Below are positions 28,212 to 34,530 of a stretch of DNA of 64,000 bases, in pieces. Each line of letters begins with the position of its first letter. Position 1 is the stretch's first letter. Below the pieces are notes generated by a model. The model was given only the letters and a program-made list of their open reading frames with translations, searched no databases and was not told where the DNA came from. Origin of the DNA: Bacteroidota bacterium (GTDB taxonomy: Bacteria; Bacteroidota; Bacteroidia; 2-12-FULL-35-15); contig JAFLBF010000001.1 of assembly GCA_017303895.1 (NCBI GenBank), forward strand, positions 186,001-250,000. Direction: 5' to 3'. A program made the translations under genes and the position numbers.

Positions 28212-28973
28212 ATGTTCTATTTAGGGATCATACCGCGTGCACTTTGGAAAGTGTTATTCTTACTCAATTTCGTTTTGGGTTTGATCGTACTGTATCCTCT
28301 TTTTGCACTCTTCCTGTCAAGAAAAGAATGGTTTCCACGCGCTTTCCAATTAAAACGTTTTTGGGCGCAATGGATCTGTTTTACTCCGGGATTGGTGGTG
28401 CGTTCGGAATGGAAAACAAAAAAAGAAGAGTTGCCACACCCCTGTGTGTACATCGCCAATCATGTTTCATATCTGGATATAATTGCTAGCTACATTGTTA
28501 TCCCCAAATACTTTGTATTTATGGGAAAGCAGGAGCTGGACAAAGCACCTTTGTTCCGTATCTTTTTCAAAGAGATGAATATATTGGTCGATAGAAAAAG
28601 TAATGTCGGTTCGCATCGTGCATTTTTAAGAGCAGGAAAAGATCTGGAGGAAGGGAACAGTGTGTTTTTATTTCCGGAAGGAACAATATCAAGTAAAGGT
28701 CAGTTAAGAGGATTTAAAAATGGCGCATTCAAATTAGCCATTGAAAAACAAGTTCCAATTGTACCTGTTGTATTTTTAAATAACTGGAAATTATTACAGA
28801 ATGGTGGCTTTTTTAAAGCTAGCGGAAGACCTGGAATTAGCAGGGTTGTCGTTCAAAAACCCATTTCTACTATTGGTCTTACTGAAAATGATTTATTATC
28901 TTTGCGGGGCAAGGTTCATCAGATCATACAAGATGAATTAAATAAATACAATTTAGAACATGAAGATCGATAA
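28212..28973 (+). CDS. 1-acyl-sn-glycerol-3-phosphate acyltransferase (PlsC family)
   Basis: This protein of about 253 residues adds a second acyl chain in phospholipid synthesis or acylates a related lipid. It has an N-terminal membrane helix pair and the catalytic HX4D motif in IANHVSYLDI near 83-92, then FPEGTISSKGQLRGFKNGAFKLA near 155-177 and VPIVPVVF. I chose ATG 28212 because the TTG at 28203 falls within the promoter box. Its end overlaps the gatC start by 14 bases. Confidence 0.88.
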   Translation: MFYLGIIPRALWKVLFLLNFVLGLIVLYPLFALFLSRKEWFPRAFQLKRFWAQWICFTPGLVVRSEWKTKKEELPHPCVYIANHVSYLDIIASYIVIPKYFVFMGKQELDKAPLFRIFFKEMNILVDRKSNVGSHRAFLRAGKDLEEGNSVFLFPEGTISSKGQLRGFKNGAFKLAIEKQVPIVPVVFLNNWKLLQNGGFFKASGRPGISRVVVQKPISTIGLTENDLLSLRGKVHQIIQDELNKYNLEHEDR

Positions 28974-29250
28974 CGAAACAGTAGATAAGATCGCACATTT
29001 GGCACGATTAGAATTTGAGAATGAAGCCAAACAAGAGATCATTAAAGACATGAATAATATGCTTTCGTTCATCGAAAAGTTAAATGAACTGGACACGCAG
29101 AATATTGAGCCGTTGATCTATATGAGTGATGAAGTGAATGTGTTGAGAGAGGATGATGTGAAGCACGAGATCACACAAGATGAGGCACTCAAAAACGCTC
29201 CAAAAAAGGATTCCGATTATTTCAAAGTTCCAAAAGTACTGGAAAAGTAA
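28960..29250 (+). CDS. gatC: Asp-tRNA(Asn)/Glu-tRNA(Gln) amidotransferase subunit C
   Basis: GatC stabilises GatA in the complex that converts misacylated Glu-tRNA(Gln) or Asp-tRNA(Asn) to the correct form. The 96-residue length is typical. Motifs are VDKIAHLARLEF at 8-19, MNNMLSFIEKLNELDT at 31-46, and LREDDV near 67. It overlaps the PlsC-like gene by 14 bases and is followed convergently by a small membrane protein. gatA and gatB are not nearby. Confidence 0.94.
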   Translation: MKIDNETVDKIAHLARLEFENEAKQEIIKDMNNMLSFIEKLNELDTQNIEPLIYMSDEVNVLREDDVKHEITQDEALKNAPKKDSDYFKVPKVLEK

Positions 29251-29253
29251 GTT

Positions 29254-29622
29254 CTATCTTCTTGGCTTATGGCCGTGTCCGTGATGTGCTCTATCACCAT
29301 GTAGCTTTGCCATAATGCGCTGTTTCTCTTCTGCATCTTTTTTGGCTTTTTTACGGGCAAGCATCGTGGAAACCCAGGCAATAGCAACCACAATTGCAAA
29401 TCCAATGGATATATAAACGATCTCTTTAATGAGCTGCTCTTGGGCCATTTTTTCCTGCTCTTCCTTTAAAGCTGCAGCTGTTTTCTTTATGTTTCCTAAA
29501 GAGGGGCTATCATCCTGAGCAATTGACAGGAAAGTGGAACTAATAAAAAGGGTAAGAAACATTAGTTTTTTGTTGTAAAACCTGACTGCAGGCTCTAAAA
29601 CACTGATTATTAGCGTTTTCAT
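29254..29622 (-). CDS. Small membrane protein with histidine-rich tail
   Basis: This protein of up to 122 residues has a hydrophobic N-terminal segment ending in SIAQ (probable signal peptide, perhaps starting at the ATG at 29562), a short coiled region (AAALKEEQEKMAQEQLI), a membrane helix near residues 68-85, and a basic, histidine-rich tail HGDRAHHGHGHKPRR. I do not recognise a family. The tail could bind metal ions. It is divergent from the rimP operon and ends 3 bases from gatC. Confidence 0.6.
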   Translation of the reverse strand: MKTLIISVLEPAVRFYNKKLMFLTLFISSTFLSIAQDDSPSLGNIKKTAAALKEEQEKMAQEQLIKEIVYISIGFAIVVAIAWVSTMLARKKAKKDAEEKQRIMAKLHGDRAHHGHGHKPRR

Positions 29623-29722: not shown

Positions 29723-29754
29723 TTTGGTAGATAAAAAAGATAGCCGTACATTTG
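29723..29754 (+). promoter_or_regulatory. Promoter of the rimP-nusA-infB operon (TTTG - 20 bases - TAnnTTTG)
   Basis: TTTG at 29723-29726 and TACATTTG at 29747-29754 are separated by 20 bases, a full match to the Bacteroidota -33/-7 arrangement. The start of transcription is expected near 29761, just before the leader hairpin. Confidence 0.7.
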
Positions 29755-29780
29755 CATTCACAATTAAGGAAAATGATTTC

Positions 29781-29807
29781 AAAGAGGGGACAGCAGTCCC
29801 CTCTTTT
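29781..29807 (+). terminator. Leader hairpin with T-run upstream of rimP, possible attenuator
   Basis: An 11-base perfect stem AAAGAGGGGAC closes on an AGCA tetraloop and is followed by TTTT. No gene ends upstream on this strand, so it lies in the 5' leader of the operon and could cause partial termination before rimP. Confidence 0.65.
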
Positions 29808-29820
29808 ATTTCTCAAACCT

Positions 29821-30285
29821 ATGATCACAAAAGAGAAAATAGAAAAACTGGTAGAAGAGAAAATTGCGGAGGGCAGCAACTTCATTGTAGATGTAGCGGT
29901 TAAACCCGGCAATAAGATCTTTATCCTGATCGACAATGTAAATGGCTTACCTATATCTGATTGTGTGGCGGTAAGCAGACATGTAGAATCGAATTTAGAC
30001 CGTGAGCAGGAAGATTTTGAGTTGAATGTATCTTCTCCGGGCTTGGATCAACCGTTCAAAGTACTTAAACAGTACAAAAAGAATATCGGGAAATATGTGG
30101 ATGTGAAAACGAAAGAAAACCAGAAACTATCAGGTAAGTTAATTTCTGCTGATGAGAATGGAATTGTGATCGAGACCAAAAGCAGCGAACGTGTAGAAGG
30201 TAAAAAAGGGAAACAATTACTTATAAATAATATCAATTTAACATTTAATCAAATTAAAGAAACGAAAGTTGTAATATCATTTTAA
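29821..30285 (+). CDS. rimP: Ribosome maturation factor RimP
   Basis: RimP assists 30S assembly. With the ATG at 29821 the protein has 154 residues, the usual length. It has the N-terminal alpha/beta domain (ITKEKIEKLVEEKIAEG, IDNVNGLPISDCVAVSRHVESNLD), the linking SSPGLDQPF motif near 79-87, and the C-terminal SH3-like domain. A longer frame to 29752 would translate the leader hairpin and is rejected. It is first in rimP-nusA-infB, followed by nusA after 15 bases. Confidence 0.95.
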   Translation: MITKEKIEKLVEEKIAEGSNFIVDVAVKPGNKIFILIDNVNGLPISDCVAVSRHVESNLDREQEDFELNVSSPGLDQPFKVLKQYKKNIGKYVDVKTKENQKLSGKLISADENGIVIETKSSERVEGKKGKQLLINNINLTFNQIKETKVVISF

Positions 30286-30300
30286 TTAATACTTAAAACA

Positions 30301-31551
30301 ATGGAAAGCATCAATTTAATTGAATCATTCTCAGAATTCAAAGAGATTAAGAACATCGACAGACCAACCTTAATGAGCATCATCGAAGATGTGTTTCGTA
30401 GCATGCTAATTAAAAAATATGGTTCAGAAGATAATTTTGATATCATCGTAAACCCTGATCGTGGAGATATCGAGATCTGGCATAACCGTGAAGTAGTGGA
30501 TGATGAATTTGCTGAAGATAGTTTTGATTATGATGAAGCAAAACACATCGGATTAAGTGCTGCTAAAAAAATTGATGAGGATCTGGAGATCGGTGAAGAG
30601 ATCACTACACCTGTAAAATTGGATGATTTCGGAAGACGTGCTGTATTGGCGGTTCGTCAGAACCTTGTTTCTAAGATCTTAGAATTAGAGAAAGACGGCA
30701 TCTACAAAAAATACAAAGAGCGTGTTGGTGAGATCATGACCGGTGAGGTTTACCAGATCTGGAAAAAAGAATTATTGATCCTGGATGAAGATGGAAATGA
30801 ATTGTTATTACCAAAATCAGAGCAAATTCCTTCTGATTTCTACAAAAAAGGCGATACGATCCGTGCAGTGGTTCAACGTGTAGAAATGAAAAATAACTCT
30901 CCTGTTATTATTCTTTCCCGTACATCACCTGCTTTCTTAGAGCGTTTATTTGAATTAGAAGTTCCGGAAGTATTTGACGGATTGATCACTATTAAGAAGA
31001 TCGTTCGTGAGCCGGGTGAGAGAGCAAAAGTTGCTGTTGAATCGTATGACGATAGAATTGATCCGGTTGGAGCATGTGTTGGTATGAAAGGTTCACGTAT
31101 CCACGGTATCGTTCGTGAGTTACGCAATGAGAACATTGACGTGATCAACTACACCAGCAATGCACAATTATTCATTACACGTGCTTTAAGTCCTGCAAAG
31201 ATCACTTCTGTTAAAATTGACGAAGAGAGCAAACGTGCAGAAGTATATTTAAAACCAGATCAAGTTTCATTAGCAATTGGTAAAGGCGGACATAATATCA
31301 AATTAGCCGGAAAATTAACGGGATATGAGATCGATGTATACCGTGATACAGATGTAGATGTAGAGGATGTTGACTTAGAAGAATTTGCAGATGAGATCGA
31401 AAGCTGGATCCTTGATGAATTAAAAGCTATCGGTTGCGATACGGCAAAATCAGTATTAGAACTTTCAGTAGATGAATTAGTAAAACGTACAGATCTTGAA
31501 GAAGAAACCATCAAAGAAGTACGTAATATTTTACAGGCAGAATTCGAGTAA
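30301..31551 (+). CDS. nusA: Transcription termination/antitermination factor NusA
   Basis: NusA binds RNA polymerase and nascent RNA and affects pausing, termination and antitermination. The 416-residue protein has the N-terminal domain (about 1-130), S1 domain (about 130-200), and two KH domains with GMKGSRIHGIVRELRNENID and AIGKGGHNIKLAGKLTGYEID. A C-terminal acidic segment and a helical end domain (LDELKAIGCDTAKSVLELS) follow. The length without the extra AR repeats is normal for Bacteroidota. It is co-transcribed with rimP and infB. Confidence 0.96.
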   Translation: MESINLIESFSEFKEIKNIDRPTLMSIIEDVFRSMLIKKYGSEDNFDIIVNPDRGDIEIWHNREVVDDEFAEDSFDYDEAKHIGLSAAKKIDEDLEIGEEITTPVKLDDFGRRAVLAVRQNLVSKILELEKDGIYKKYKERVGEIMTGEVYQIWKKELLILDEDGNELLLPKSEQIPSDFYKKGDTIRAVVQRVEMKNNSPVIILSRTSPAFLERLFELEVPEVFDGLITIKKIVREPGERAKVAVESYDDRIDPVGACVGMKGSRIHGIVRELRNENIDVINYTSNAQLFITRALSPAKITSVKIDEESKRAEVYLKPDQVSLAIGKGGHNIKLAGKLTGYEIDVYRDTDVDVEDVDLEEFADEIESWILDELKAIGCDTAKSVLELSVDELVKRTDLEEETIKEVRNILQAEFE

Positions 31552-31634: not shown

Positions 31635-34481
31635 ATGTCAGATAACAAAGTACAACGATTAAGTAAAGTTGCTAAAGAATTTAATGTTAGTGTCGGCACT
31701 ATATTAGATTTTTTAAAGAGCAAAAACATCGCTATTGAAAATAGCCCAATGGCTAAGGTCACAGAGGATGTGTATGCCGTTCTAATGAAGGAGTATCAAA
31801 GTGAGAAAGCCGCGAGAGAAGAAGCTGAAAAAGTTTCGAATATTACGCGTGCTAAAAAAGAAACGGTTGTATTAGATGAAGAGATAAAAAAACCGGAAAC
31901 TCCTAAAAAAGAAGAAGAAGAGATCATTATCAAAAACATCCAAACGGTAGAAACCCCTGTTGCAAAAGCAGAAGAAAAGCCTGCTAAAACAACAAAGAAA
32001 GCGGCAAAGAAAGAAGAAGAAGCGGATGATGTGATCAAGGCAAAAGCAGAAAGCGATGTAAAACTGAAAGTTGTTACCAAGATCGATCTGGATTCTCTTA
32101 ACTCTAAAACGAAGCCGGGTAAAAAATCAAAAGAAGAAAAAGAAGAAGAGAAAAAAGCAAAAACAACTACTAAAGGAAAATCAAAAAGTAAAAAAGCTGC
32201 AGAAGAAGAAGTTGAAGAAGAAAAAGTAGAAACAGCTGCAACTGTTGTTGAAGAAAAAGCTCCTGAAGTAATTACTCCGGAACCGGCTAAAGAAGACTTC
32301 TATGAAACAAAAGTAGAGAAGTTAGAAGGTCCGAAAATTATGGGTAAGATCGAATTACCTGTAAAAGACGACAAGAAAAAACCGGTTGCATCATCCTCTG
32401 CAAACAATGCATTTGATGACAAGAAGAAAAAACGTAAACGTATTAAGAAAAGCTTTGGTGGAACTACCATTGGCGACTCTGTAAATCCTGGAACACAATC
32501 GGATAACAAAGATAAACCAAGATTTAACCAAGGTGGTGGTGCCGGAAAAGGAAAATTCCAAAAACACCAAAAAGCTGAATTAACTCCTGATGAAATTCAG
32601 GCACAGATCAAAGAAACATTAGCACGTTTAAGTGGTGGTGGTAAATCAAAAGCTTCTAAACACAGACGTTTAAAACGTGATGCCGTTAGTGAGCGTTTAC
32701 AGGAAGAAGCGGAATTACAAGAAGCAGAAAAGAAGATCATTAAAGTAACGGAGTTCGTTTCGGCTAATCAGTTAGCTCAAATGATGAACATCTCGGTGAA
32801 TGAGATCATCTCTACTTGTATGAGTTTAGGAATGTTCGTATCCATCAACCAACGTTTGGATGCTGAAACGATCGCTATCGTTGCTGAAGAGTTTGGATAC
32901 AAACTGGAGTTTGTTAGTGTTGAAGTACAGGAAGCGATCAAAGAAGAAGAAGATAAACCGGAAGATCTATTATCACGCTCACCAATTGTAACTGTGATGG
33001 GTCACGTTGACCATGGTAAAACATCATTATTGGATTATATCCGTAAAGCGAATGTAATTGCCGGTGAGGCGGGTGGTATCACTCAGCACATTGGTGCTTA
33101 CAATGTAAAATTAGAAAATGGTAAAACAATTACCTTCTTGGATACTCCCGGTCACGAAGCGTTTACCGCGATGCGTGCACGTGGTGCCAAGGTAACAGAT
33201 ATTGCGATCATTGTGGTTGCTGCCGATGATAGTGTAATGCCTCAAACAGTGGAGGCGATCAATCACGCGCAAGCAGCAGGTGTACCGATCGTTATTGCGA
33301 TCAACAAGATCGATAAGCCGGGTGCGAATCCGGATAAGATCCGTGAAGCATTAGCGAACATGAATATCTTGGTGGAAGAATGGGGTGGTAAATATCAGTG
33401 TCAGGAGATCTCTGCGAAGATGGGTAAAAACATTGATGTGTTATTAGATAAAGTACTATTGGAAGCAGAAATGTTGGATCTTAAAGCAAATCCAAACAAG
33501 AATGCGAGTGGTACTGTTATCGAGTCTGAGCTTGACAAAGGAAGAGGATATGTAAGCACCATCCTTGTTGAAACAGGAACATTACATGTTGGAGATATTG
33601 TATTAGCAGGTTGTTTCAGTGGTAAAGTAAAAGCGTTACACAATGAGCGTGGACAAGTAGTAAAAGCTGCAGGTCCTGCCATGCCGGTGATCCTATTGGG
33701 ATTAAGCGGTGCACCACAAGCAGGTGATAAATTCCATGTAATGACTGATGAGCGTGAAGCACGTGAGATCGCGGCAAAACGTTTACAATTACAACGTGAA
33801 CAAGGTATCCGTACTCAAAAACACATTACGTTGGATGAGATCGGGAGACGTTTGGCGATCGGTGATTTCAAAGAATTGAATGTGATCGTAAAAGGTGACG
33901 TGGATGGATCTGTTGAAGCATTAGCGGATTCATTACAAAAACTTTCTACAGATAAAGTACAAGTGAAGATCGTTCACAAAGCGGTGGGTGCGATCAGTGA
34001 ATCGGATGTATTGTTAGCTTCTGCTTCCAATGCGATCATTGTCGGTTTCCAGGTTCGTCCTTCACAAAGTGCACGTAAGATCGCTGAAACAGAACAGATC
34101 GACATCCGTTTATACTCTATCATTTACAAAGCGATTGAAGAGATCAAAGCTGCGATGGAAGGTATGTTAGCTCCAGAGTTTGAGGAGAAAGTAGTATGTA
34201 ACATCGAGATCCGTGAGGTATTCAATATTACGAAAGTAGGTACAATTGCAGGATGTTATGTATTAGACGGTAAAGTAACACGTAATACTAAAGTTCGTAT
34301 CATCCGTGATGGAATTGTTGTACACGATGGATCATTAGGTTCATTGAAACGTTTCAAAGACGATGTAAAAGAAGTGAATAAAGGATTTGAGTGTGGATTG
34401 AACATCGAAGGATTCAACGATATCAAAGTTGGAGATATCATTGAAGGATATGAAATGGTAGAGATAAAAGCTAAGTTATAA
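31635..34481 (+). CDS. infB: Translation initiation factor IF-2
   Basis: IF-2 brings initiator tRNA to the ribosome. The 948-residue protein starts with an N-terminal IF2 domain ([25 protein letters not shown] cut short here), then a long Lys/Glu-rich disordered region to about residue 345. After a second IF2_N domain comes the G domain: GHVDHGKT at 456-463, [15 protein letters not shown]. Domains II to IV follow. The large charged linker is usual in the phylum. A strong terminator closes the operon. Confidence 0.97.
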
Positions 34482-34494
34482 AACAAGCAGATAA

Positions 34495-34530
34495 AAAAAA
34501 TCCCCCTTCGGTTTCGAAGGGGGATTTTTT
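34495..34530. terminator. Bidirectional terminator after infB
   Basis: Perfect 16-base stem AAAAAATCCCCCTTCG with GTTT loop and T-runs on both strands, between infB and the convergent MORN-repeat gene. Confidence 0.95.

Follow-up and report, generated by a model that had tools for sequence, protein, structure and literature searches.

Naville and Gautheret 2010 (PMC2965389) described the general form of the rimP-leader: according to their main text, a terminator hairpin with a T stretch stands 4-130 nt before rimP, in the same operon and without an antiterminator, and NusA is named as the best candidate. That main text makes no mention of Bacteroid*, although Bacteroidota may be among the matches in the supplements. 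In E. coli, terminators upstream of rimP are reported, together with regulation by NusA of its own operon (PMC6511841); the hairpin just before rimP there has the form GGGC...GCCC with TTTTTTT. The gammaproteobacterial rimP leader of Rfam (RF01770) belongs to the same operon, but is a larger, tandem structure. For B. subtilis, NusA-stimulated attenuation of nusA is reported in a review (PMC12288461), the intrinsic terminator lying in an operon 5' leader of ~180 nt. RNA-seq of the rimP operon of Streptococcus agalactiae is reported to show a single start site that yields transcripts of two lengths, short and long, with intrinsic termination 31 nt downstream of that site, and feedback by NusA was proposed (PMC4448216). 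Within the Bacteroidota, a structured 5' element of rimP in Flavobacterium psychrophilum, kept in other Flavobacteriaceae and without an Rfam hit, is listed in one sentence that gives no mechanism (PMC9723704). No closer treatment of a Bacteroidota rimP leader was found in the literature searched, which covered few subscription papers.

Comparison with the known leaders

The leader described here lies in a 64-kb window, the whole stretch of DNA analysed. It is a Bacteroidota member of this known kind of element, and the brake that it suggests is one already described for the operon in other bacteria; what the sequences appear to delimit is its extent across the phylum, the signature of its stem and its fixed spacing from the promoter. 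The earlier note could not say whether the leader was related to the rimP element of other bacteria. That doubt is narrowed as regards the form of Naville and Gautheret, which agrees in its place, its operon, the G-rich 5' arm, the U tract and the absence of an antiterminator; their stem is GGGc...gCCC, whereas the one found here is mostly GAGGGGAC...GTCCCCTC (GGGGAC...GTCCCC), and the common polarity of the arms (G-rich 5', C-rich 3') is reversed in some classes. Membership of RF01770 was rejected, the window giving no match at gathering score: its opposite strand reached only 13.1 bits against a threshold of 47, and E. coli, the positive control, 102 bits. The intrinsic terminator in the 5' leader is shared with B. 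subtilis, NusA stimulation being a feature reported there, but the leader is only ~60 nt long here. The S. agalactiae leader, from a different phylum, and the F. psychrophilum element, from the same phylum and gene, are likened to it by description, the present leader being known from sequence alone.

Features of the leader and operon

Table 1. Features at the rimP-nusA-infB locus, in window coordinates
Feature	Position	Strand	Description
Nearest upstream + strand gene	28960-29250	+	GatC-like from reading of its sequence
Upstream neighbour gene	29254-29622	-	small, divergent; hydrophobic stretch and His-rich end
Bacteroidota-type promoter	29723-29754	+	-33 element TTTG (29723-29726); 20 nt; -7 box TAnnTTTG (TACATTTG, 29747-29754)
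Terminator hairpin	29781-29806	+	11 bp, perfect; arms 29781-29791 (AAAGAGGGGAC) and 29796-29806 (GTCCCCTCTTT); loop AGCA (29792-29795); core GAGGGGAC/GTCCCCTC
U tract	29804-29811	+	interrupted; TTTTATTT, from sequence
rimP	29821-30285	+	first operon gene; ATG at 29821
nusA	30301-31551	+	second operon gene; proposed source of the feedback factor
infB	31635-34481	+	third operon gene; named by position and sequence
Terminator 3' of infB	34495-34530	+	16 bp, strong on both strands; operon end

The earlier note had proposed an attenuator in this leader from a full promoter, an 11-base perfect hairpin with TTTT and the absence of a gene ending upstream on the same strand. The hairpin is borne out: the leader folds at -22.9 kcal/mol, compared with a shuffle mean of -10.3 (z -5.3; none of 200 shuffles as good), and 14 nt separate the end of its stem from the rimP ATG. 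The T tract is short (TTTT A TTT), which counts against reading the hairpin as a terminator. The promoter is there too, as one of Bacteroidota type; it is not sigma-70-like and does not appear in the list of sites predicted for the window. The statement on upstream genes holds closely enough, as the neighbour lies on the minus strand and the GatC-like plus-strand gene ends ~530 nt ahead of the leader stem.

Transcription would start near 29757-29761, and the -7 box is separated from the stem by 26 nt. TAnnTTTG is reported as the -7 box in F. psychrophilum (PMC9723704). The window holds six distinct hairpin-plus-T sites on the plus strand and six on the minus strand, mostly the same sites read both ways, and only the rimP leader among them has TAnnTTTG within 60 nt upstream.

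A further ATG in the reading frame of rimP occurs at 29773, ahead of the hairpin (MISKRGQQSPLLFLKP-M...), and gene callers may set the rimP start there, inside the terminator. Translation of rimP from this codon was rejected, the ATG being absent in one of the other loci (L029).

Conservation across the Bacteroidota

The comparison of leaders in relatives that the earlier note had called for was made on 140 regions upstream of rimP (30 from the window's own genome and its relatives, 80 named loci and 30 from the phylum), of which two were dropped as the own genome again (L001, L117) and three for want of rimP or because of a contig end (L027, L050, L079). A hairpin was called terminator-like at -10 kcal/mol or better if followed directly by a T-rich tract (5 of 8 T). 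By sequence, such an intrinsic terminator is present in the 5' UTR of rimP, on the same strand, in 130 of the 135 remaining loci (in the window at 29781-29811), compared with 9 of 270 shuffled regions; the loci are not independent, 16 being from the window's own genus, the window included. A stricter scan for unbroken stems gave 111/135, against a mean of 1.0/135 per shuffle set and 1/135 for control regions inside nusA. The proposal of an attenuator, which the earlier note would have taken as refuted had no hairpin been conserved, is thus supported, as far as sequence goes, by this conservation, by the covariation given below and by the literature on the operon.

The five loci in which the scan found no terminator are counted against the main reading: L041, just under the cut-off at -9.7, L055, L056, L101 and L137. 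Both L056 and L101 have a hairpin with a poor T tract. In L101 (Arenibacter) the hairpin is long and at the expected place, with no T tract, and either loss of the terminator or an altered mechanism is possible there.

Of 36 loci scanned, 5 have a tRNA-Gln upstream of rimP (L037:1898-1971, L044:1896-1967, L052:1709-1780, L057:1852-1923 and, with two copies, L101:1349-1627). In L037 and L044 the tRNA is separated from the hairpin by just a few tens of bases, and no TAnnTTTG was seen in between. Upstream tRNAs also occur in L096 and L110, and E. coli has metY at the same place.

Promoter spacing and leader anatomy

Further comparisons were made on 99 leaders with a perfect core, some of them from classes outside Bacteroidia. 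In 91 of the 99, TAnnTTTG is found no more than 75 nt ahead of the stem, compared with 20 of 684 control windows, and the gap between box and stem in these 91 is 12-42 nt (median 23). The distance from the inferred start site to the stem is ~20 nt. From the stem to the first in-frame ATG it is 8-67 nt, with a median of 17 (85 leaders). The hairpin thus keeps its distance from the promoter no less strictly than its distance from the start codon, and this favours a role in transcription. Sequence and conservation together show a promoter, a hairpin and a T tract in fixed order, with no competing structure.

No visible antiterminator was found: in none of 91 leaders does the upstream spacer, the only part considered, pair with either arm within 4 kcal/mol of the hairpin, and an antiterminator was accordingly rejected. 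A spacer of ~20 nt with no competing pairing could hold neither a riboswitch nor an antiterminator. A short ORF of at least 5 codons precedes the terminator in only 27 of 91 leaders, and no Rfam match was found in the window; on these grounds a riboswitch, a T-box and a leader-peptide attenuator were all set aside.

Unbroken T runs average 4.4 in 98 leaders and 5.6 in 21 3' terminators (p 0.002), in a comparison whose rows are not independent and whose 3' set includes 10 sites from the window, several single sites counted on both strands and a few that may be no terminators. T counts do not differ between the rimP leaders and the same 21 (p 0.19), and neither T counts nor energies differ from those of 28 3' terminators, a set that contains some rimP leaders. 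L026, one of the 99, was left out of the spacer, ORF and T-run analyses, as a wrong upstream hairpin had been taken. The shorter runs fit a terminator that needs help from a factor. In B. subtilis, NusA and NusG are reported to help at suboptimal hairpins and U tracts (PMC8060035).

Sequence of the stem

In Bacteroidia the core is mostly GAGGGGAC-loop-GTCCCCTC, with freely variable loops of 3-8 nt. GGGGAC occurs in 62 of the 99 leaders and in none of the 21 3' terminators, and a 5' arm containing GGG is seen in 92 of 99 and 1 of 21, respectively. Compensated changes are seen as GAAGGGAACG/CGTTCCCTTC in several Chitinophagaceae, GAGCGGAC/GTCCGCTC in L096 and GAGGCACGC/GCGTGCCTC in L110. In an alignment of 16 Bacteroidia rows, hand-picked from 38 for perfect stems in one register, so that the 100% pairing is by choice and the evidence lies in the changes on both sides and not in the pairing rate, both-side changes occur at 6 of 8 stem pairs, a number reached in none of 500 shuffles.

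Other classes have different stems, such as GTGAGCGTC...GGCACTCGC, TAGCCCG...CGGGCTA and TTCGCCCC...GGGCGA, some with longer T runs, up to TTTTTTTT, and in some the C-rich arm precedes the G-rich one. What all classes retain is thus the position, the pairing and the T tract, and the GAGGGGAC stem is characteristic of Bacteroidia. An internal mismatch of the stem, C opposite A, followed by TTTTTTTT, was observed in five loci outside the window's class (L124, L127, L128, L129 and L130).

Of 31 genomes, 22 contain the pattern AGGGGACN{3,8}GTCCCCT, at 23 sites in all (a site read on both strands counts once). Judged by nusA positions, 21 of these are at rimP, so that the motif marks one operon. 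The other two follow a sucC-like gene (L142) and a gene for a secreted protein (L161), both named from reading of their sequences; they stand at gene ends, as terminators do, which argues for the terminator reading. A regulon was rejected, given 21 sites at rimP and two placed like 3' terminators. A covariance model (R1) finds rimP best by far in the window's own genome (41.7 bits; next 31.0), but lacks specificity for rimP and carries no weight as evidence here: across 60 genomes of the phylum, most of the matches listed lie away from rimP, and in 15 genomes of the same class, the own genome included, the best match listed is at rimP in eight, elsewhere in five and not listed in two.

Proposed mechanism and alternatives

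The most probable reading, considered likely, is that a promoter-proximal intrinsic terminator limits transcription of its own operon, most likely under stimulation by NusA; the terminator is read from the sequence, and the part of NusA is inferred. Together, the hairpin and T tract would make up an intrinsic terminator around +45 to +55 of the rimP-nusA-infB transcript, which polymerase starting at the TAnnTTTG promoter would reach almost immediately. Some polymerases would stop there, freeing a leader of ~50 nt, and others would continue into rimP, nusA and infB. Because no antiterminator was found, the stopping fraction probably depends on polymerase-bound proteins, NusA above all. More NusA would then give more termination and so less NusA, and such a feedback loop of NusA on its own operon is, by analogy with the other bacteria, the best guess for this locus. 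Termination itself, its partial extent and its control by NusA are inferences. The earlier note was right in its observations and plausibly right on the mechanism.

The stem sequence of Bacteroidia is more conserved than a plain terminator needs, which tells against the main reading. The excess of GGGGAC and of GGG over 3' terminators would be unneeded for a plain NusA effect, and it favours an attenuator set by something other than NusA, be it a different bound protein (RimP, IF2 or NusG) that reads the stem or a fixed leak that sets the level of the operon. This alternative is unlikely, although by no means negligible: the stem differs in other classes, even to the C-rich arm coming first, so that a universal protein reading its sequence is hard to expect, and the operon literature points to NusA (PMC4448216, PMC12288461). 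A bolder version of the main reading, speculative and thought quite improbable, is that the leader acts as a sensor in promoter escape. The stem, which begins at an almost constant 10-25 nt from the start site, would lie where termination is decided as sigma leaves and NusA arrives, and NusA or some other bound factor would read the GAGGGGAC stem itself as the mark of one operon.

Since the stem lies close to both the inferred 5' end and the first in-frame ATG, it could instead shield the mRNA or adjust rimP translation, with no termination involved. This is very improbable, as the T tract is kept along with the stem and is lengthened in some other classes, and the distance to the ATG varies widely. 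The hairpin might also end an upstream transcript or a small RNA and have nothing to do with how the operon is controlled; this would fit the 59 of 130 loci in which the upstream gene runs in the same direction, some within 100 nt, and the two loci, L037 and L044, in which a tRNA-Gln ends shortly before the hairpin. In 64 of the 130, and in the window, the upstream gene is divergent, so that the hairpin there is no 3' terminator, and the -7 box upstream of the stem in most leaders points the same way; an upstream-transcript origin is accordingly considered extremely improbable.

Implications

In the rimP-nusA-infB operon, ribosome maturation is tied to transcription termination and to translation initiation. 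A terminator at the head of this operon throughout the phylum suggests that feedback by NusA is very widespread in bacteria. The leader marks out a family that was unmatched here by Rfam release 15, and is a very small candidate reporter of NusA for Bacteroidota.
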